From Terrimonas sp. (GTDB lineage Bacteria; Bacteroidota; Bacteroidia; Chitinophagales; Chitinophagaceae), in assembly GCF_003075435.1 (NCBI RefSeq), contig NZ_QCZJ01000010.1:124001-188000 (forward strand): a DNA stretch of 64,000 nt. Reading direction: 5' to 3'. The notes below the pieces were generated by a model, which was given only the letters and a program-made list of their open reading frames with translations, was not told where the DNA came from and searched no databases. This document shows, in pieces, positions 40,796-50,283 of the stretch. Made by a program: the position numbers and the translations under genes. The number at the start of each line of letters is the position of its first letter. Position 1 is the first letter of the stretch.

Positions 40796-41177
40796 AGCGA
40801 CTTTGAATTTTAAAAAAAAGATACGGGGCAAACGAAACCCAAATAGGAATTAATACCCAAACACGGCCTTTCATAATATTATACTCTCCCAGTAGCTGAG
40901 ATATTGTACTTCCTCGCATCAACCCAAATCCAAATTCAAAAATCAAAGTCAGGATTAACCAAAATAATCCCAGTAAAATGGCATTCATCTCTGATTCAAC
41001 AGGAGTTTTTTTCATAACTATCCAAATGTAAATACCAAAAAGAAGCACAAGTGAAAACGTAGAAATTTGATGCGCTCTAATTTCACCAACATATTTTTTA
41101 TACCACAAATCTCTTGCACTGCCATTAATAATGGCAAGAATAAGCATAGGAAACCAGCATAAAAAATATCTCCACAT
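40794..41177 (-). CDS. Small four-helix membrane protein, unknown function
   Basis: 127 residues with four hydrophobic segments (about 1-22, 42-58, 66-86 and 108-122) and short loops. No family recognised. It lies in an AT-rich region just outside the cassette-like array and is probably an accessory gene. Confidence 0.6.
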   Translation of the reverse strand: MWRYFLCWFPMLILAIINGSARDLWYKKYVGEIRAHQISTFSLVLLFGIYIWIVMKKTPVESEMNAILLGLFWLILTLIFEFGFGLMRGSTISQLLGEYNIMKGRVWVLIPIWVSFAPYLFFKIQSR

Positions 41178-41422
41178 GTAATGTCAATTAATAACTTAAT
41201 GCTTATTAAAATTACAGATAACGTTCAACAGCTTTGCGTTCGGCAGGGCATTTGAAAAACGTTCAGCCCGGAAATGCTGCTGGTGTAAGATACAAAAGTT
41301 GAGAATATATTTTACTGTTCATTTGCGTTCACTTTTAGGTTTGTGCTGCCTTTTCTGTTTTGGATTATTGAACAGTCTGTTTAAAAAATTTCGAAGCATT
41401 GGGAATGTTAATTAAAATACCA
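41178..41422. other. Intergenic region before the cassette array
   Basis: A 26-codon minus-strand ORF (41319-41399; MLRNFLNRLFNNPKQKRQ) is the only coding candidate. The motif AGATAACGTTCAACAGC near 41218-41234 resembles the cassette-boundary element but has no clear partner. Confidence 0.3.
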
Positions 41423-41453
41423 GCTAACGTTTTTGCCAATACCGTGTTATAGC
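41423..41453. repeat. Cassette boundary palindrome (attC-like), left of the RM block
   Basis: GCTAAC (41423-41428) pairs with GTTATAGC (41446-41453), with one two-base bulge. The same type of termini recurs at 49727 and 50275. It marks the outer edge of the unit that contains the type I RM genes. Confidence 0.5.
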
Positions 41454-41775
41454 CAGTGGTGTTTGTCCTCAGTCTTTGTAAACCATTGTTCATACTGCGT
41501 TTCAAAGACGTATCGGGTTGTGCGGGTGCGTATTTTTTATTTTACTCACTGGTTTATTATCATTTTAATTGTGTTCGTGAATGCTTCGCATTTCAGAAGG
41601 GGAGGAGATTTTTTTTAATTACTCACTTTATAATTGTTTTTTAAAAGGTGTTCGTGAACCGTAAACGGTTTCAATTTTGTCTGCGTAGGAAAAGTGGAAG
41701 CTCTTTTGCAAGCTTTGGCCTGTGCTTGGGCTTGTGCGGCTTGCAAATGTGCTTACACCTGTGCATTGGCCAATC

Positions 41776-43596
41776 TTAGACAGATTGAGGATATAGTTCA
41801 TTTGTCTGCATGTATTTATAGCCAGTCATAATTTGTTCCGGTGTGAACTTCTTCTTTTCAGGATGAAATTTATAGAATCCCTCAATCAAAGCGTTGTCCG
41901 AAATGATTGTCTTTTCTGCCTTCAGTTCTTTCCAGGCGAAATACAAAGTAGCTACAATTTCTGCTGTCTGCGTTTTTTCTTTTCTGAAAAGCTCGATTAT
42001 TCTGTTTATGGTTTTAGCCTCTGATTCAAAATAATTGTTGAAGTACTTTTTGTATAACAATGATTTATCGGTCTTTTTATAAACTGTCGCTTCTCTTTGC
42101 TGATCGTTTACTAAAAAAGTTTTTTTCTCAATCGTAAACCATTTATTTTTTTCAAATTCTTTGTCAATGAGTGTAAGTGTTTTGCCGTCAAAAGGGCCTG
42201 CGGCAAATTTCTTATAGTTCGTTTGTAAAGCCATTCCGCCAGCCTGTTCACATAAATACAGTAACTTCATTAACTTGGTATGCCCAAATGTTGGTTCTTC
42301 ACATAGTTCATATGCAATATGGGAGGCCAGCATCAGTTTTCTTAAAAATGCCTGTTGTTTGGTCAGTTCAGTCTGAATAATTTTTGCTTCCTGTTTGATC
42401 GGAATAACAACTTTTTGTTCTTGGGCTTTTGTGGTCAACTCCCCACTAAACGCCTTTTGGCTTAAACTGCCATATAAATTTTCCAACTCCTGCAAGCTTT
42501 GCTGGTATTGGGTTTTGAGGGCTTCTGTTTTTTCTACGATTTGGGCAAATTGGGTTTGGAGTGAGAGGGGTGGTTTTATCATTTTTATTTTTTCAAAACC
42601 TCCTTTAGTCAATATTTTCTTCATTCCATTAGAAGCAGCATCTTGGATATATTTTCTTGAAATCTTGAATAGCCAATACAAATACAAAGGTTCAATTTCT
42701 TCGTTCGGTTGTATTGCATTTATTTGTTGATTAAAAGATACTTTTCTATTAGTCAATGCTGCTCTACCAACTGATTGAATACTTCCTGCAATGCAAGCAA
42801 CAAGTAAAGCACCAGCTTCAACAGTTCGTGCATATCTCAATCCTGATTCAGAAAGAAATTCGACTGCCTTTGTAATGTATGTATCATCAACTGGAATGTT
42901 ATCTGTTTTTATCCATTCAATAAAATCAGATGAGTAGTTTTCTGCATTATTTCTCGGTGGTGTATTTCCTGTAACTATTTCACCAAAATATTTCAATTCA
43001 ACCTTATCCCATTTCTTTTCATTTTTGGTGAAGTCTCCAAACATCTCCAAAAAAGTGCTTTTCAAAAATTCATCCAGCAGGCGGATGCTTTCTTTGCGTT
43101 GGGCTATCAGGTTTTCGGCTTTGCTTAATAGGTTGGCGATGTGGAGTTGGTCGGGAAGGGAGGGAACGGGAATTGTGAATTCTTCAAATTTACTCTTTGA
43201 CAATTCTTTGAATGTTGAACCCGTTCCTAAATCTTGTAGTTTCTTTACGCTTCTTTTTAAAGCATAGTAAACATATTCAGAGGCGTAGTCTTTTTTTAAA
43301 ATAATGCTTTTGAATCCTTGATTAGTGCATACTTCAATATTGTTGATAGCTAAATGTCCAATAGGAGCTCTTGATGTAAAAAGAATATTCCCTGGTGGAA
43401 TCAACCGTGTTGAGCATGATTTAAAGCCTTCTTCTGTAATTTTCCTTTCAGTATCGGTTAAATATTTTTCGTGTAATTGACCAAGTTCTTTTGGAGTTAC
43501 CCAATTTATTTCACCGTCCCAATATTCTTTTTTCTCAGTCTTAGGAGTAGAACCAGAAATGACATCACCTATTTCTTTGATTTTTAAATATTTCAT
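41776..43596 (-). CDS. hsdS: Type I restriction-modification specificity subunit with fused C-terminal domain
   Basis: About 606 residues from ATG 43596, which overlaps the hsdM stop as TGATG. Two target-recognition domains lie at about 1-185 and 200-385 (IKEIGDVISGSTPKTEKKEYWDG; VTGNTPPRNNAENY), each followed by a coiled coil (PDQLHIANLLSKAENLIAQRKES; QTQFAQIVEKTEALKTQ). They specify the bipartite DNA site. The last 200 residues are not HsdS-like: GHTKLMKLLYLCEQ...AAGPFDGK resembles the DUF4065/Panacea (SocA-like) domain. This is an unusual fusion. Confidence 0.9.
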   Translation of the reverse strand: MKYLKIKEIGDVISGSTPKTEKKEYWDGEINWVTPKELGQLHEKYLTDTERKITEEGFKSCSTRLIPPGNILFTSRAPIGHLAINNIEVCTNQGFKSIILKKDYASEYVYYALKRSVKKLQDLGTGSTFKELSKSKFEEFTIPVPSLPDQLHIANLLSKAENLIAQRKESIRLLDEFLKSTFLEMFGDFTKNEKKWDKVELKYFGEIVTGNTPPRNNAENYSSDFIEWIKTDNIPVDDTYITKAVEFLSESGLRYARTVEAGALLVACIAGSIQSVGRAALTNRKVSFNQQINAIQPNEEIEPLYLYWLFKISRKYIQDAASNGMKKILTKGGFEKIKMIKPPLSLQTQFAQIVEKTEALKTQYQQSLQELENLYGSLSQKAFSGELTTKAQEQKVVIPIKQEAKIIQTELTKQQAFLRKLMLASHIAYELCEEPTFGHTKLMKLLYLCEQAGGMALQTNYKKFAAGPFDGKTLTLIDKEFEKNKWFTIEKKTFLVNDQQREATVYKKTDKSLLYKKYFNNYFESEAKTINRIIELFRKEKTQTAEIVATLYFAWKELKAEKTIISDNALIEGFYKFHPEKKKFTPEQIMTGYKYMQTNELYPQSV

Positions 43597-45254
43597 CACA
43601 CAAACTCTTTTAATTCCGCCAACCCTTTTTGAATATCGGCTTCAATGCTTTCTAATCTCCTGAATATCACATCGGGCTTTTCATATGCCACTTCTTCATA
43701 CACTTCTTCCTTGTAGGTGCTTAGGTTCAGATCGTAGTTGTTTTCGACAATTTCCTTTTTCGGCACCATAAAGTATTTCTGTCTCCTGTCTGAATCAGGA
43801 TTTTCAGAATTTGAGGATTTGCCGGATTTTTTATTTGCATTTATCTTGTTCATCCCATCATCCTGAAAATCCTGATTCAGACGGTTTTTGTAGCGTTGCA
43901 CAATGTCGGGCAAATCACTTTCGGCAATTTTGTTGCGTTTATCGTCTAAAGTGTAGCCGTCTGCCTGCATATCGTAAAACCACACATGATTGGTTTCACC
44001 GCCTTTAGTAAAAATTAAAATGGCGGTGCTTACGCCTGCATAGGGCTTAAACACTCCGCTTGGCACGGCAATCACGGCTTTCAGTTCGGCTTTTTCAATA
44101 ATCAGTTTTCGCAGGGCTTCAAATGCCTTTCCGCTGTTTTGTATTACACCACTTGGTACAATTACGGCAGCCGTTCCGCCCATTTTCAGCATGTTAAAAA
44201 TGCGTTCAACAAACAGCAGTTCGGTTTTGGTGGTGGGCAGTTTCAGCCCTTCGTTAATATCGCCTTTGTCTATGTTTCCTGTAAAGGGCGGGTTCGCCAT
44301 AATGATGTCGAACTGGCTGTCTTCGTTGTAGCTTTTGCTCAGGGTGTCTTTGTAGTCTATTTTGGGTTCGTCAATGCCGTGCATCATCATGTTCATCAAA
44401 CCCAGGCGCACCATGGTGGTGTCAATATCATAACCTACAAAACTCTGGTCTAAAATGGTTTTTACTTTTTGCGTCAACATGGCACTAATGGCGGCACGTT
44501 CAAAACCGTCTTCGTCTTTGCTTAGTTTGGCAGGGTCTTTTTTTCTTACCAAATCGGTAAGAATGTATTGATACGCCCCCAACAGGAAACCACCTGTTCC
44601 GCAAGCCGGGTCGGCAATGCGTTGTCCCAACTGCGGAGCCACCAGTTCAGCCATCAGTTTTATAATGTGCCGGGGAGTGCGGAACTGTCCGTTTTTTCCT
44701 GCCGTGGCAATTTCACTCAACAGCATTTCATACACATCGCCCTGTATGTCCTGAAAAGCATGTCCGCCTTCGGTGGCATCTTTTTCAATTTCCCTGAAAA
44801 TTTCCTCTACAATGTTGATGGCAGAAACCAGCAAACTGGCTTTGGGCATGATGAACACAGCATTTGCCATGTGGCGGGTAAAATTGTCTGAATCAGAATT
44901 TTCAGGATTAGAGGATTTGCTGAATTCTTTAAGGAAAGGAAATACTTTCATTTGCACATGCATCAGCATTTCGTCTGCGGGCTTGTGTTTAAAAACACTC
45001 CAACGCAATTCGTTTTTGTCAATGCTTTCGTTGCTGCCCGGTATTTGAAACTTGCCTTTAAAACGGCTGCTGTATTTTTCGCCTGTAAACTCGGCATCCC
45101 TTTCCCGTTTGGCTTCCAAATCGTCCAAACGTTTCATAAAAATGAGGTAGGTAATTTGCTCAATGGCGGTTAAGGGGTTGGCAATGCCGCCTTCCCAAAA
45201 GTTTTGCCAGAGCTTGTCTATAAGCGATTTGAGTTGTGCGTTGTTTTGTAACAT
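43596..45254 (-). CDS. hsdM: Type I restriction-modification DNA methyltransferase subunit
   Basis: 552 residues. N-terminal HsdM helices, then the SAM-binding DPACGTGGFLLGAY (about 218-231) and catalytic MANPPF (about 317-322, the N6-adenine methylase motif NPPF), with a C-terminal YDLNLSTYKEEVYEE. It makes N6-methyladenine and with HsdS and HsdR forms the type I enzyme. Two palindromic-repeat pieces (43788-43882 and 44886-44927) lie inside the frame, adding SSNSENPDSD and SSNPENSDSD peptides. The start directly abuts the stop of the Bro-N gene. Confidence 0.96.
   Translation of the reverse strand: MLQNNAQLKSLIDKLWQNFWEGGIANPLTAIEQITYLIFMKRLDDLEAKRERDAEFTGEKYSSRFKGKFQIPGSNESIDKNELRWSVFKHKPADEMLMHVQMKVFPFLKEFSKSSNPENSDSDNFTRHMANAVFIMPKASLLVSAINIVEEIFREIEKDATEGGHAFQDIQGDVYEMLLSEIATAGKNGQFRTPRHIIKLMAELVAPQLGQRIADPACGTGGFLLGAYQYILTDLVRKKDPAKLSKDEDGFERAAISAMLTQKVKTILDQSFVGYDIDTTMVRLGLMNMMMHGIDEPKIDYKDTLSKSYNEDSQFDIIMANPPFTGNIDKGDINEGLKLPTTKTELLFVERIFNMLKMGGTAAVIVPSGVIQNSGKAFEALRKLIIEKAELKAVIAVPSGVFKPYAGVSTAILIFTKGGETNHVWFYDMQADGYTLDDKRNKIAESDLPDIVQRYKNRLNQDFQDDGMNKINANKKSGKSSNSENPDSDRRQKYFMVPKKEIVENNYDLNLSTYKEEVYEEVAYEKPDVIFRRLESIEADIQKGLAELKEFV
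43788..43882. repeat. 95-bp palindromic element inside hsdM
   Basis: Ends are perfect 20-bp inverted repeats: GTCTGAATCAGGATTTTCAG (43788-43807) and CTGAAAATCCTGATTCAGAC (43863-43882). It encodes about residues 458-489 of HsdM, in a spot between the methylase core and the VPKKEI segment where HsdM normally has a short loop. The ends are those of the GxxExxY element at 46114. Confidence 0.85.
44886..44927. repeat. Solo end of the same repeat family inside hsdM
   Basis: GTCTGAATCAGAATTTTCAG and the following 22 bases (GATTAGAGGATTTGCTGAATTC) match the left end of the 95-bp element at 43788 closely. It codes for HsdM residues about 110-123 (FSKSSNPENSDSDNF), next to the N-terminal helices. No opposite end is nearby. 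Confidence 0.75.
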
Positions 45255-46112
45255 CTACTTCTTTTTGTTTTTCGGTTTTTTCTTTTCACCCTCATTCAAT
45301 TGCAATGCGCTTTTGGCATTTAGAGAGGTTACTACGTTTTTTCCTGTTTTAGCTTCCAGTTCTTTGCGGGCTACTCTTGCTACATTGCCGCCTTGTTTGG
45401 CTACTTTCTTGCTTTCTTCAAAATCTTTCGGACTGGTTGCAGCTGATATGTCCTTTGTGGATGCTTCGGCAAGCATGTTTAAAATAAGTTCCGTGTTGGT
45501 CATGTTATCCCTCAAGTTTTGTTTTTTTAGCCCTTTCAGGATTTTATATTCTTTCGTGGTTTTATCACTCCATGCTTTGGTAATAATATCGGTAAGCGTT
45601 GCAAACTGAACGCCCTCTTTCAAGCCTCTTTTTTTCCATTCGTCTGTTAGTTCCTTTCTAATTTCAATACTTTTCAATCGTTGGTTTATCCAGTTTTCTG
45701 AATAACCGAGTTTCATGTATTGTTCCAATGCCCGGTCAATACTCAGTTCAGGGTCTTGCATTTCATCTAATCGTTCTGCGGCTACCTGTGCCAGCCATTG
45801 TTTAAAGGGTTCTGCTTTGGGCGATGGTATGGATTGTATCAGGCGAAAAAGCTGTTCGGTATCAGCCACATCGGTCAATCTCATTTTGCCGTCTGGGGCT
45901 GGCATTTTCAAAGCGTTACAATTTGTAACGGTTTCATTTCCCTCGTCTTTTAATCTCTTTTTTAATACCCGCCAATACACCTGAGGATTAGGGCTATCGG
46001 TTAAAACTGCAATAACATCAACAATCGATAAATACCATTTTTCGTTTTCAGCATCCCAAAGCGTTCTAACCTTTTTGTCCTCAAATATTTTTATTTCATT
46101 TTGCTTTTTCAT
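45255..46112 (-). CDS. Bro-N domain protein in the RM operon
   Basis: 285 residues. The N-terminal Bro-N domain of phage antirepressors is clear: KIFEDKKVRTLWDAENEKWYLSIVDVIAVLTDS, then FRLIQSIPSPKAEPFKQWLAQVAAERLDEMQDPE. The C-terminal part is a long basic helical region (KKWAK and EGEKKKPKNKKK tail). It is often found next to type I RM genes and may regulate or protect them; not known here. Its ATG abuts the inserted GxxExxY element, and its stop TAG abuts the hsdM ATG. Confidence 0.88.
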   Translation of the reverse strand: MKKQNEIKIFEDKKVRTLWDAENEKWYLSIVDVIAVLTDSPNPQVYWRVLKKRLKDEGNETVTNCNALKMPAPDGKMRLTDVADTEQLFRLIQSIPSPKAEPFKQWLAQVAAERLDEMQDPELSIDRALEQYMKLGYSENWINQRLKSIEIRKELTDEWKKRGLKEGVQFATLTDIITKAWSDKTTKEYKILKGLKKQNLRDNMTNTELILNMLAEASTKDISAATSPKDFEESKKVAKQGGNVARVARKELEAKTGKNVVTSLNAKSALQLNEGEKKKPKNKKK

Positions 46113-46113
46113 T

Positions 46114-46586
46114 GTCTGAATCAGAATTTACTGAATTTTTGAATTTGCTGAATTGTGTTTTGGATAATACTTAGGATTAAATAAAAGTTTATGCTGCAAA
46201 CTTTGGCTTCCAAAATTTATCAATAGTCCAAGGGGGAAATCATAAGCCACCGTATAGTTTTTTGCTTGTGCGATATGAACATCTTCAAGATTCACCAACG
46301 CTTTAAGTTCAACTACTACTTTGCCTTCCACAATGAAATCCGCCCTTCTTGTTCCTACTTCAATGTTTTCATAAAACACAGTTTGCTCTTGCTCTCTTTT
46401 GAAACCTAATCCTACTCTCTCTAATTCTATCGCAAGGCATCTTTGGTAAATCACTTCCTGAAAGCCGGGACCCATCGTATTGTGAACCTTCATTGCACAA
46501 CCAATTATCTTATACGTCAACTCGTCCTTTTCCATATCCTATTTTTATTCTGTTATTTTTTTCATTTTGTAAATTCTGATTCAGAC
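46114..46586 (-). mobile_element. 473-bp element with terminal inverted repeats encoding a GxxExxY protein
   Basis: Ends are perfect 18-bp inverted repeats: GTCTGAATCAGAATTTAC at 46114-46131 and its complement at 46569-46586. The element is flanked by the direct repeat CATT (46110-46113 and 46587-46590). It contains just the GxxExxY gene. Removing the element and one CATT copy leaves CATTTA, giving hsdR stop TAA directly followed by ATG of the Bro-N gene, as at the other junctions in this operon. The insertion is therefore secondary. Confidence 0.8.
46128..46535 (-). CDS. GxxExxY (PD-(D/E)XK-like) protein carried by the element
   Basis: 135 residues of the GxxExxY family, a PD-(D/E)XK nuclease-like fold of unknown function. 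Signature GPGFQEVIYQ near residue 22, with the catalytic-like RRADFIVEGKVVVELKA (D...ExK) and C-terminal AQAKNYTVAYDFPLGLLINFGS. The stop codon lies within the left terminal repeat, and the C-terminal NSANSKIQ is encoded by it. The gene sits between hsdR and the Bro-N gene, but only because the element is inserted there. Confidence 0.92.
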   Translation of the reverse strand: MEKDELTYKIIGCAMKVHNTMGPGFQEVIYQRCLAIELERVGLGFKREQEQTVFYENIEVGTRRADFIVEGKVVVELKALVNLEDVHIAQAKNYTVAYDFPLGLLINFGSQSLQHKLLFNPKYYPKHNSANSKIQ

Positions 46587-46589
46587 CAT

Positions 46590-49379
46590 TTATGCTGCTA
46601 ATACTTGTTCGGTTAAACTTAAAATTTCGTCAATCTCTTTTTGATTGAAAATTCCCCTGATGCCTTCGGGATGAAGCATGGTAAAAGGCGATTCAATCAG
46701 GTTGCATTTGCTCACATCACCTTTTTCCAACACAAAGTTTTTGAGCAAATCCAAAAATTGAAGTTGTCGGCTGGTGAGGTAACTGTGTTTGGCAATAAAA
46801 TCATCAAATGCTTTGGTAACGGTTTCGGCAAAGGTTTCTAATTGCTCTATACCCAAAATATGTTTTATGAATTGCACCAATGCCGCTTTGCGATGGTTGT
46901 AAACCTTGCGAAGCAAATCAATAGTAATATGCGGATGCTCGTTGTGCAGTTCTTCTGCCAATTGTTCCGCTTCATCTGTTGAGATTTCCTGTCCCTGTTT
47001 TAATTTCTGTAAAATCGGATTGCTTGAAACCAGTTCGTTGATTTTCTTTTCAACCAGTTCACGGTATTTGGCTACACTCAACGCTTCGTGTTGCGGACCA
47101 AACTCTACAAACTCCTTTTCGGCAACAATGTCTTTCAGGTTGAATTTTGCAGGAGCCAGCGGAATAACCGCTTCACGGAATTTCATCAATGGTGATAACT
47201 TCTGAATCAGTTCTTCAAACTTGTCTTCATTGATGGTTGCCCAATAATGATTGCTTTGTGCCTGTCGAATCAATTCCTGCTCTCTTGCTACAATGTTGAT
47301 ACTCAAAGGCAGTTCGCCAATTTCTTCAATGATGCTTTCTTTCAGTGTTTCAAACTTTTCCGTTTCACCTGCCAAATGAGCCAAAGAAACTTCCACAATG
47401 TCTTTTTCAAATCGCATGGCTTTGAAATCAACATCTGAAACCGTGCGAAGCAGTGGTTTTACAACGGCTTCCAAAAACTCCATTTTGTCGGAAGTCAGAT
47501 TGTTCCAGAAGTTATCATCTTCTAAGCGTTGCAGTTCGTGTTTGGCTTCCATGATTACAACTGAATTCTTCGGAAGCGACTCAACCTGCTTTCTGATTTT
47601 CTGAACTTCTTTATTTACAATTTCGGAATTGCTTTGTGTTTGGGCTTCTTCAATTTTTTCCAGTCGAATACCAAACAAGCGAACAGGCAAAGGAATTTGT
47701 CCTTTCAGTTCTTTGCCTCTCGGATTGAGTTTGAAATATTCAAAGTTGTCCCAGCAATCAAGAATCAGGAAATTGTCTTTCTGTGTGCACCAGGGTTTTA
47801 TTTTTTCAGGTTCGAGTAAACGGGTTCCTCTGCCTATCATTTGCCAAAATTTGGTATAGCTGTAAACAGGTTTTGCAAAAACCAAATTCACCAATTCCCG
47901 AACATCAATACCCGTGTCGAGCATGTCCACACTGATGGCAATGCGTGGCATGTCGTTGCTCACAAACTGGTCGAGCAAACCGCCTTTTCCGTAAACTCTT
48001 GGGTCTTCACTTACCAATACTTTGGCTAATTCTCCTTTGTATTCTGGATAAAGCGAATCAAAAATTTCTTCAACTCGTCTTGCATGTGCTTTGCTGATGC
48101 AAAAGAAAATCGTTTTCCCTGGCAAAACTCCGTTGGCATCTTTGATGCTTTCTTCCATGAATTCACGGACAATTAAAGCGTTGGTGCCACGGTTGATTAC
48201 CTTCTTTTCAATCTCTGTTCCTTCGTAGTTGATTTCTTCAATTTCCTTTCCTTCCAACATCAATTTTTGTTGGTCTTCTAAAGAAATTGTCCGCTTGCTT
48301 ATGCCTTCGTCCTGAAACTTGGTTTTAATTTTCATTACCTGAAAATTGCTCAGGAATGGAGGAATGTGATTTACTGCTTCATCATAAGAATAAGCAAAAG
48401 TCGGAACGCCATCCTCGCATTCAAACAATTGAAACGTGTTGTGGTCAATTACGTCCGTTGGCGTGGCGGTCAAGCCAAGTGTAATGGTATTGAAGTAATC
48501 AAGAATTTCCTGATAGGTGTTGTAAATGCTGCGGTGGCTTTCATCCACCACAATCAAGTCAAAGAAATGCGGACTTAATGATTTTTCTTCATTGCGAATT
48601 ACATTCAACATAGTCGGATAAGTTGAAACATAAATCCGTCTGTCGGTGGCAATTTCCTTTTCGCCTTGCTTTAGCCAGCGAGGTTCGTTTGGCAAATGCT
48701 CTTTGAATGCTTCCAGTGTTTGGTCACGCAATGCGATTCTGTCAACAAGGAATAAAACTCTTTCTACCCAACCTGCTCTCATTAAAGCGTCCACCAGGGC
48801 AATGCAGGTTCTTGTCTTGCCCGTGCCGGTAGCCATTACCAACAAGAATTTGCGTTTCCGTTTTTCAACGGCTTCCATTACGGCACGAATAGAAGCAATT
48901 TGATAGTTCCTTCCTGCAATGTTGGTATTGATAAGTTCTCCTGCTAATGGCTTTCTCGCTTTGCGTATGTAGGCATAGCGTTCAAGGTCGTCCCGTGTCG
49001 GGAAACCATAAACTTTCTTTGGGGGATAGTTTTCTAAGTCCCAAAAGTAAATGTCGTGTCCATTGGTATAAAAGCAGAAAGGCAGGTCAACGCCTTGTGT
49101 TGATTGAATGTTGTAGCAATATTGTTTGGCTTGCTCCCGTCCGAGTGCAGCGTCCACCGAAGTTTTTTTGGCTTCTACAACGGCAAGTGGTTTACCGTCC
49201 TTGCCCAATAAAACATAGTCGCTGTATTGGTGTCCAGCGTATGGAGTTGTCGGTTCTTCAACAACTGTCAAGTGAATGTCAAATTCTTCAATTACCTGAG
49301 TTAGGTCAGTCACATTCCAACCCGCTTGTTTTAAGCGGTTGTCAATGATTTCTTTCCTTGTCAGTTTTTCGTTCTTCAC
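46590..49379 (-). CDS. hsdR: Type I restriction-modification endonuclease/translocase subunit
   Basis: 929 residues. An N-terminal nuclease region with PD-(D/E)XK-like KPLAVVEAKKTSVDA is followed by SF2 translocase motifs: VMATGTGKT (Walker A), VVDESHRS, LGLTATP, SVDMLDTGIDV and QMIGRGTR. The C-terminal part is an EcoEI_R-like helical domain. It cuts unmodified DNA while translocating, together with the HsdM/HsdS complex. It is first in the operon; the inserted GxxExxY element now starts 4 bp after its stop. Confidence 0.96.
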   Translation of the reverse strand: MKNEKLTRKEIIDNRLKQAGWNVTDLTQVIEEFDIHLTVVEEPTTPYAGHQYSDYVLLGKDGKPLAVVEAKKTSVDAALGREQAKQYCYNIQSTQGVDLPFCFYTNGHDIYFWDLENYPPKKVYGFPTRDDLERYAYIRKARKPLAGELINTNIAGRNYQIASIRAVMEAVEKRKRKFLLVMATGTGKTRTCIALVDALMRAGWVERVLFLVDRIALRDQTLEAFKEHLPNEPRWLKQGEKEIATDRRIYVSTYPTMLNVIRNEEKSLSPHFFDLIVVDESHRSIYNTYQEILDYFNTITLGLTATPTDVIDHNTFQLFECEDGVPTFAYSYDEAVNHIPPFLSNFQVMKIKTKFQDEGISKRTISLEDQQKLMLEGKEIEEINYEGTEIEKKVINRGTNALIVREFMEESIKDANGVLPGKTIFFCISKAHARRVEEIFDSLYPEYKGELAKVLVSEDPRVYGKGGLLDQFVSNDMPRIAISVDMLDTGIDVRELVNLVFAKPVYSYTKFWQMIGRGTRLLEPEKIKPWCTQKDNFLILDCWDNFEYFKLNPRGKELKGQIPLPVRLFGIRLEKIEEAQTQSNSEIVNKEVQKIRKQVESLPKNSVVIMEAKHELQRLEDDNFWNNLTSDKMEFLEAVVKPLLRTVSDVDFKAMRFEKDIVEVSLAHLAGETEKFETLKESIIEEIGELPLSINIVAREQELIRQAQSNHYWATINEDKFEELIQKLSPLMKFREAVIPLAPAKFNLKDIVAEKEFVEFGPQHEALSVAKYRELVEKKINELVSSNPILQKLKQGQEISTDEAEQLAEELHNEHPHITIDLLRKVYNHRKAALVQFIKHILGIEQLETFAETVTKAFDDFIAKHSYLTSRQLQFLDLLKNFVLEKGDVSKCNLIESPFTMLHPEGIRGIFNQKEIDEILSLTEQVLAA

Positions 49380-49720
49380 TTTATATATTCTAAAATTTAT
49401 AGTTGGTCAAAATACGCAAAAAATCTGTTTTGTTGTCCGAATGCTCTGTCGGTGCGTTGGCAGAAACAGCTCTTTGGATTTTGTCACAGGGTTGGCTTTG
49501 TGCGGATGGGGCAAAATCCAATGTGCCGTTTGCGAGTCGGCATAAAATTGAATTAAAAAAAATGTGCGGTGGGGAAAATAAAAAATACACAAGGGTAGGC
49601 AATGAGTGCCGGCTCAGTGCTGTCCGTTTGTAATATGGTCTGTATGTTGGTCATTTGTCAAAATGGTTTACTTTCTGTTTATGTTTTGGTCGTCCTTTCT
49701 ATGTTCGGAGTGTCGTCCTA
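49380..49720. other. Upstream region of the RM operon
   Basis: Short overlapping open frames occur on both strands (49339-49633), with no family match and no convincing start context. This is presumably the promoter region of hsdR; no clear -7/-33 pair could be chosen. Confidence 0.4.
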
Positions 49721-49726
49721 CCATTG

Positions 49727-49750
49727 GCTATAACGCCCCGTGTTGTACGC
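49727..49750. repeat. Cassette boundary palindrome between units 1 and 2
   Basis: GCTATAAC (49727-49734) and GTTGTACGC (49742-49750) are near inverted repeats (GCnTAyAAC) with a seven-base linker, GCCCCGT. It joins unit 1 to unit 2. Confidence 0.5.
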
Positions 49751-50283
49751 TGGCTCTCTACTTTTAATATCAAGGGTATATTCTTACTTTGTAATTCCTA
49801 TCAGTGATAACTTTGTAGTGCTGTTTGAATATTTGTCAAAATAAAATGTTATTGTTAGAACTTGGAAATACCTAATCCAAATTACTTGTTCTTCCTCGTT
49901 TATTTCAAATTTTAATTTATTAATTTTTAAGTATGATTTCAGGTTTTCGGCATTACAATTATTAAGGTTAAATCGCCTTTTATTACTGTCACCCAAAAAA
50001 AGGTGGTTTTCCTGATTTTGCATTAAAATATCAAAAGAGTTAATAATTCCTCCATTAGTTGAGACCTCAACATCTACCTCCCTATCAAAGAAATAATAAG
50101 CATTCGTATTATCTCCAATTGGATTATAGTCAATTTCTACCTTAAAAGAAGTTAGGTCAAGTGGAGATCCTATCTTGAATTGGAAAAAAGTATCTGGGCT
50201 AATATAATTTTCTAAATAAATGTCTCCCATTAATTAGTAATTCTTAGTTACAATATAGAGTATGTCCACTGCTAGCGTACAAC
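49742..50283 (-). mobile_element. Cassette-like unit 2 with one hypothetical gene
   Basis: Begins GTTGTACGCTGGC (49742-49754) and ends GCTAGCGTACAAC (50271-50283). The ends are inverted repeats with one mismatch in 13. It contains a single leftward gene. Confidence 0.5.
49784..50230 (-). CDS. Hypothetical protein, 148 residues
   Basis: A soluble protein beginning MGDIYLENYISPDTFF, with beta-rich composition (TSFKVEIDYNP, IRYFQVLTITFYFDKY). No signal peptide, no recognised family. Single gene of a cassette-like unit, as often seen for accessory or immunity-type proteins, but nothing shows a role. Confidence 0.55.
   Translation of the reverse strand: MGDIYLENYISPDTFFQFKIGSPLDLTSFKVEIDYNPIGDNTNAYYFFDREVDVEVSTNGGIINSFDILMQNQENHLFLGDSNKRRFNLNNCNAENLKSYLKINKLKFEINEEEQVIWIRYFQVLTITFYFDKYSNSTTKLSLIGITK

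Follow-up and report, generated by a model that had tools for sequence, protein, structure and literature searches.

A GxxExxY gene between inverted repeat arrays in a Terrimonas hsd operon: a very small insertion element that its own nuclease may mobilise

How does a gene for a protein of 135 amino acids come to lie alone between perfect inverted repeats in the middle of a restriction-modification operon? The question is raised by a 64-kb stretch of Terrimonas sp. DNA (contig NZ_QCZJ01000010.1, positions 124,001 to 188,000), the whole of which we call the window. Here a minus-strand operon in the order hsdR, Bro-N gene, hsdM and hsdS is interrupted between its first two genes by a 473-bp element (46114–46586, minus strand; GTCTGAATCAG...CTGATTCAGAC). 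As the initial annotation of this DNA had claimed, the element has perfect 18-bp inverted ends and a GxxExxY gene as its sole cargo. A base-level check confirms that its arms (GTCTGAATCAGAATTTAC) are exact reverse complements, which an ungapped extension lengthens to 26 nt at 88%. In the sense of the minus strand, the 5' repeat (46569–46586) follows directly upon the hsdR stop codon, and the 3' repeat (46114–46131) continues inward as an array (TGAATTTTTGAATTTGCTGAATT on the plus strand) that overlaps the 3' end of the gene. The gene itself (46128–46535, minus strand) scores 132.1 bits against TIGR04256 (cut-off 35) and 128.5 bits against PF13366 (cut-off 22). Only two places in the window have 18-bp sequences that are exactly inverted within 1 kb of each other, this element and a 95-bp element (43788–43882), on which ground we reject a chance origin of the ends; elsewhere in the 6.2-Mb genome, on other contigs, TCTGAATCAGRATTT is found three times, each only with one mismatch. 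We favour the view that the element belongs to a widespread family of tiny insertion elements with a GxxExxY nuclease as the only gene and, with less confidence, though still as more likely than not, that GxxExxY is the nuclease that mobilises it.

Is the 473-bp unit an insertion? Presence and absence at orthologous sites in the hsd operon, within hsdM and at trpG/trpD show that it is. Removal of the element had been predicted to place the TAA of hsdR (46590–49379, minus strand) beside the ATG of the Bro-N gene (45255–46112, minus strand), and a search of relatives for empty sites had been proposed. Exactly this junction was found at locus L047 (identical to L186; genome G096, from another family of the same order, with an hsdR about 97% identical), where hsdR joins the Bro-N gene directly (...GCGGCATGAGCAAAC). 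L047 in turn carries a 74%-identical GxxExxY gene with GTCTGAATCAG ends between Bro-N and hsdM, a junction that is element-free in the window, so that the empty junctions of the two loci are reciprocal. Two further relatives (L187, L191) have 55–57%-identical GxxExxY genes after hsdS, with mismatch-free end pairing limited to the outer 9–10 bp.

The hsdM gene (43596–45254, minus strand) holds two relics of such elements, both in frame and of the same end type: the gene-less 95-bp mini element (43788–43882, minus strand) and a single end of about 42 bp at a second tolerant site (44886–44927, minus strand). At the site of the 95-bp copy, L186 has an element with other inner units at an equal outer position (AACC/GTCTGAACCATGATT...AATCATAGTTCAGAC/AGGAG), and L187 and L191 have no element. 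The single-end site, in the HsdM loop VFPFLK, is occupied by a complete mini element in L191 and by nothing in L187, L188 and L192; in L186 it carries, again in frame, the unrelated palindrome CCCCTCTCCAAATGGAGAGGGG. The loop, with GTCTGAA elements in the window and in L191, is a tolerant spot for several repeat families.

Outside the hsd operon, the gap at the trpG/trpD junction was measurable in 15 of 30 loci; four of these hold a GxxExxY gene, ten have a gap of 10–110 bp, and one has 213 bp of end-like sequence without the gene. The window genome's own trpG/trpD copy, one of the four, is a pseudogene. A GxxExxY gene also lies immediately before cas1 in four genomes of the genus (L314–L317), and cas1 stands without it in L318 and L319; in the window genome (L003), cas4 is on the other side of this gene according to Pfam. 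A 105-aa open reading frame (ORF) between cas4 and cas1 in L318 (genome G033), which had been suspected to be a piece of an IS200/REP-type transposase, matched no Pfam family. Judged from these sequence comparisons, the GxxExxY element is very probably a mobile unit.

If the element inserted, did it leave a target duplication? The initial annotation had read CATT as such a signature. The repeat is indeed present on both sides, at 46110–46113, where it overlaps the Bro-N start codon, and at 46587–46590, where its last base is part of the hsdR stop codon, but its reading as an insertion signature does not hold. Across 89 elements with GTCTG-type ends, a few of them with an end assigned where the motif fits badly (L023, L194 and L237 among others), equal flanks of 2–6 bp are no commoner than in shuffled flanks (at 4 bp, 5 of the 89 elements where 3.3 would be expected, p 0.23). 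Since short flanking repeats stand at chance level, we reject CATT as a general target duplication, and it demonstrates none at this locus. Because the flanks tend towards AATT/GTCTG...CAGAC/AAT, the AATG seen here can arise from this tendency together with the start codon.

Do other GxxExxY genes carry such ends? A search for them had likewise been proposed, and in other phyla, too, many of the GxxExxY genes closest to this one lie between comparable ends. Scoring the highest-ranking inverted repeat that the flanks of a gene form with each other (threshold at least 25), with windows shifted along the same DNA as controls, we found inverted ends at 86 of 114 loci in a first sample (controls 9/322), at 58 of 78 loci in named GTDB genomes (controls 4/142) and at 52 of 69 loci in a later phylum-wide sample (controls 7/268). 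These loci represent, respectively, 121 GxxExxY ORFs after exclusion of short ORFs or short flanks, 80 loci that were the closest of at least 570, and 71 ORFs. When flanks were taken strictly outside the ORF, with the start codon picked by rule and unproven, 77 of 116 loci of the first sample still scored at least 25. The initial annotation was correct that the 18-bp ends are real, yet the one type it saw is one of several, each an array of 8–9-bp units: GTCTGAAYC...GATT, ACCACAGAG, TTTCACGCAAAG, GCCACGAAT, ACAGATAACACAGAT and others. A single end sequence common to all GxxExxY genes is thereby rejected. What the ends have in common is their build, a fixed outer word followed by inward-pointing degenerate units, with GTCTGAAYC as the outer word in the clade of the window; the 8–9-bp period is marked in three groups of 35–93 ends (z 8–13) and in a group of 19 (z 4.9). 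The 3' end often adjoins the start codon of the following gene, with an ATG within 8 bases in 35 of 76 cases.

A similar layout surrounds genes of another family, S23 four-helix-bundle proteins (TIGR02436; L156–L185): inverted arrays occur in 24 of 30 loci, these loci, like the first 30 of each family search, being the best-scoring ones and not a random draw. Ends of the GxxExxY type were not what these genes proved to have, for the S23 arrays of this order repeat a unit of 7 bp (over 39 ends, lag 7 gives a z of 26). With 7-bp units on one side and 8–9-bp units on the other, two protein families have two repeat designs.

What ties the ends to the protein? We compared the 5' end of one locus with the 3' end of another across 116 loci, using flanks outside the ORF, a score of at least 26 as a match, and only pairs without detected common neighbour genes; a match obtained in this way cannot stem from shared flanks. 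Ends matched in 64% of 56 pairs at a protein distance below 0.3 and in 32% of 260 pairs at 0.3–0.4, and the share was 3.5% of 3209 pairs at 0.6–0.7 and 2.1% of 1400 pairs above 0.7. In 500 permutations the correlation between ends and protein was never as high as the observed one. Thus, to judge from sequence, the arrays differ between clades yet accompany the protein into unrelated contexts, and gene and ends occur as a unit. The simplest reading of their co-occurrence, short of proof, is that the GxxExxY protein may recognise the arrays. Among the closest GTDB loci, GTCTGAA-like ends occur in Bacteroidota, a Spirochaete (L265), Fibrimonadales (L202, L211, L226), Calditrichia (L235), Ignavibacterium (L228) and a Thermochlorobacteriaceae genome (L230), and GTCTTAAC ends in two Chloroflexi (L254, L257). 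Pontibacter fetidus BT213, of the Bacteroidota, has two loci of the GTCTGAATCAG type (L198, L210). Of 58 related genomes, 42 have GxxExxY genes, as do 59 of 118 in a phylum-wide draw. Matches were found in 8 of 72,556 plasmid records; a phage origin is unsupported, with none among 50,697 phage records at E 1e-5 and one 35%-identical match in a pattern scan of viral contigs.

Could the protein act on DNA? The initial annotation had ascribed to it a fold like that of PD-(D/E)XK nucleases, and an AlphaFold2 model (pLDDT 94.4), its Foldseek matches and the conserved residues all bear this out. Invariant in 45 diverse sequences are G22, G24, E27, Y30, E76 and K78, and D66, Q90, Y94, G103, N107 and F108 are at least 90% conserved. 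The window protein thereby has the complete PD-(D/E)XK residue set (E27, D66, E76xK78), together with Q90xxxY94, a QxxxY motif of the RecB/Cas4-like kind, and is a predicted nuclease. The best Foldseek match is SSO0001 (E 2.8e-4), a Cas4, followed by lambda exonuclease (2.1e-3); MGME1, AddAB and R2 match more weakly, and no more than two matches stand at E 0.001 or below. A profile search of the sequences of solved structures returned nothing at E 1. We know of no assigned role for GxxExxY genes. In three genomes of one genus (L429, L430, L431), GxxExxY forms the N-terminal part of an 878-aa ORF; Pfam, applied to L430 alone, identified the remainder there as a RecQ helicase. The DNA of the linker looks to us like a decayed element end, but inverted-repeat scores reach only 19–26. 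Nuclease action on the ends becomes likelier because the ends fit the protein clade and the catalytic residues are conserved.

How might such a protein move its gene? We envision that GxxExxY would bind arrays of its own type, cut at the outer word and nick both strands of the target tens of bases apart, whereupon fill-in by host repair would sometimes leave a duplication that is long and of variable length, although the majority of insertions now have none. Insertions would then persist where two genes of an operon meet and, in frame, in tolerant protein loops. The proposal of widely staggered nicks draws on long direct repeats, which were sought only at elements with defined ends, 130 and, in a later sample, 42. 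In the outer flanks, repeats scoring at least 26 occur at 13 of 130 elements, compared with 0.18% for mismatched flanks, and repeats at score 30 at 11 of 130 (null 0.1%); the later sample has them at 4 of 42 (null 0.03%). Seven of the 172 elements have clean repeats of 18–84 bp, which lie within 4 bp of both ends and are not end units: 46 bp with one mismatch at an hsdR-like 3' end (L228), 42 bp with one mismatch at an hsdS 3' end (L191), 22 bp with two mismatches (L093), 21 bp with two (L257), 21 bp with three (L238), 18 bp with two (L239) and, in the later sample, 84 bp at about 88% (L407). Staggered nicking is a tentative element of the scheme, and we hold it slightly more loosely than at first because the clean cases were recounted.

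Copies without a gene would, in this scheme, be mobilised in trans, as has been proposed for REPINs and RAYTs. A strict pattern of the window's end type, GTCTGAAYYNNGATTN{4,6}GATT, has 104 matches in 18 of the 58 related genomes (reversed control, 0), or 0–24 per genome, with this end type alone being counted. In 40 regions fetched around GTCTGAA ends, which cover part of the 104 matches, inverted pairs less than 3 kb apart enclose either 95–217 bp without a gene or a broken GxxExxY gene (480 bp), and pairs about 1 kb apart enclose ORFs with Por_Secre_tail or DUF1361. No cognate transposase was seen within these pairs, of whose ORFs only four were tested by Pfam. It is the occurrence of related genes with corresponding kinds of ends in several bacterial phyla that points to a mobile element which may do without any known transposase. 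Once matches within about 1 kb of GxxExxY genes had been removed by hand, dispersed ends were left in 7 of the 16 genomes that have GTCTGAA-type genes and in 5 of the 42 that do not, so that the association is weak; the Fisher test applied to ends and genes is partly circular, the element's own ends counting as matches, and we place no weight on it. Separately, genome G015 contains gene-less elements of 133–140 bp with GTCTGAACC ends in 8 of 10 regions fetched (L273–L282), and a matching GxxExxY gene was not found in this genome. Taken in its fullest form, our proposal is that GxxExxY proteins would be the mobilising enzymes of undescribed transposable elements of about 0.5 kb, with array reading, staggered nicks and gene-less in-frame copies, and that S23 with its 7-bp arrays would represent another system, independent of the first but designed alike; this broad version we regard as evenly poised between right and wrong.

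Several observations weigh against a self-mobilising element. Joint travel of gene and ends is insufficient by itself to show recognition, and the loci below the score threshold number 28 of 114, 20 of 78 and 17 of 69 in the three samples; those of Poribacteria, Deltaproteobacteria and Dolichospermum in the GTDB sample have no such inverted repeat. Long direct repeats are rare, none being found at 17 gene-less or broken elements, and their raw counts hold poor cases: repeats composed of end-like repeats (L134, L043, L272, L034, and in part L391), of low complexity (L379), or beginning 8–44 bp off the element end (L021, L131, L115, L364). Nor are the compared sites entirely clean. In L047 the final 18 or so Bro-N codons are replaced next to the element, and neither hsdM site has quite the same host bases in its filled and empty forms, some being different and some missing. 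Recent copies that are nearly identical to each other were not demonstrated within any one genome, the pair L310/L312 sharing its flanks. Finally, strict ends occur without a matching gene: G015, G016 and G027 have 13, 14 and 2 of them, the two GxxExxY genes of G015 have other ends or none, and G016 and G027 have no GxxExxY gene; and at L308, strict inverted ends 3.3 kb apart enclose an ORF with an rve integrase core together with a complete 217-bp mini copy.

The last two observations, and the abundance of gene-less copies, are what would be expected if the ends resembled those of miniature inverted-repeat transposable elements (MITEs) and were moved by a transposase encoded elsewhere, with GxxExxY as cargo, for example a defence or repair gene. 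We consider this unlikely, if still the most serious alternative. A common mover would impose common ends, whereas the end sequence shifts with the GxxExxY clade; the contents of the inverted pairs described above, as far as the four ORFs tested tell, offer no candidate for such a mover; and the rve ORF of L308, which sits between a single end and the complete mini copy, may be a mere neighbour.

A second alternative places the process at the level of RNA. The unit would then be an intervening sequence (IVS) like the S23-bearing ones of 23S rRNA, the ends of the transcript would pair and be cut by RNase III, and the protein would be an RNA maturase or a neutral passenger. Of the 170 loci left after short flanks and cases without a 60-aa ORF had been dropped, 124 have both neighbouring ORFs co-directional with the GxxExxY gene, and the S23 genes, which belong to the IVS protein family, have the analogous inverted-array layout described above. 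The Coxiella IVS, according to PMC4990558, measures 428 nt, has inverted repeats at its termini and contains an S23 ORF, and thus resembles the window element in its size of about 430 nt, its one small ORF and its inverted ends. The GxxExxY protein, however, is PDDEXK_3 and not S23, its location is outside rRNA (an Rfam scan of 41000–50000 gave no match), and its closest solved folds are DNA nucleases. Pairing in the window extends over only about 18 bp, the inner arms being unpaired by eye; the in-frame copies leave the hsdM ORF open, so that removal from RNA is unnecessary there; and an RNA process alone does not explain movement between sites. An RNA-level origin therefore appears improbable to us. 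Still harder to credit are regulatory or terminator hairpins that merely accumulate beside GxxExxY genes without any moving unit, for although at some loci each side forms a full hairpin (L129, L130) and many flanks lie between genes, empty and filled sites exist, similar proteins keep the same ends in unrelated contexts, and direct repeats lie outside the ends in a few cases.

The host operon deserves comment in its own right. The slot between hsdR and hsdM, occupied in the window by the Bro-N gene, which PADLOC assigns to the candidate defence model PDC-S13, holds differing accessory ORFs in L048, L049, L051 and L053 and in this respect resembles an exchange site for candidate defence genes. 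The window's hsdS (41776–43599, minus strand), identified as an operon member, encodes about 200 additional aa at the C terminus (GHTKLMKLLYL...), in which we see some likeness to a DUF4065/Panacea domain, though only as an impression; Pfam at E 0.001 showed Methylase_S only and no such domain. An hsd homologue lies nearby at 21 of 197 GxxExxY loci and at none of 30 S23 loci, the flank lengths fetched differing between the two sets.

How does an element mobilised by GxxExxY compare with known systems? MITEs and small insertion sequences have terminal inverted repeats, gene-less derivatives and a short fixed target duplication; GxxExxY elements share the first two features, but their cargo is no DDE transposase and a short fixed target duplication is absent from the 89 elements. 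Rickettsia palindromic elements are palindromic repeats in frame inside protein genes, to which the hsdM copies are alike, with the difference that gene-bearing relatives exist for GxxExxY ends; we know of no protein partner of the Rickettsia elements. Cas4, lambda exonuclease, AddAB and MGME1 are the nucleases with the closest solved folds, and unlike them GxxExxY, with about 125–140 aa, is the only protein of its element and is covered by a separate family model. The nearest parallel in layout is the REP/RAYT system, in which, according to passages of PMC2817692, a small gene for a nucleic-acid-cutting protein lies between two inverted short repeats, with REPINs as dispersed gene-less inverted pairs (also PMC3116915). 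RAYTs are tyrosine transposases akin to those of IS200/IS605, and REP copy numbers are usually above 100 per genome (PMC2817692). The window-type element, too, has one gene between inverted repeats and gene-less pairs, but GxxExxY is a PD-(D/E)XK protein, the ends are arrays of 8–9-bp units, and one end type has 0–24 strict copies per genome. A Y1 tyrosine transposase (Transposase_17) was not found in the element gene, for which PDDEXK_3 and GxxExxY were the only matching families; because such a transposase is absent and copy numbers are low, we do not count the element as a member of REP/RAYT. In the open-access literature, where the name GxxExxY turned up in two papers and PF13366 in one, no description of such elements was found; PMC4679880 concerns TAACTGA direct repeats.

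If our preferred reading is correct, it would provide a role for GxxExxY genes and a source for a large class of anonymous degenerate repeats, and would explain odd in-frame insertions in proteins such as HsdM. With a size of about 0.5 kb, the system lends itself to direct testing, and a PD-(D/E)XK protein acting alone would extend the enzyme classes known to move DNA by one more.

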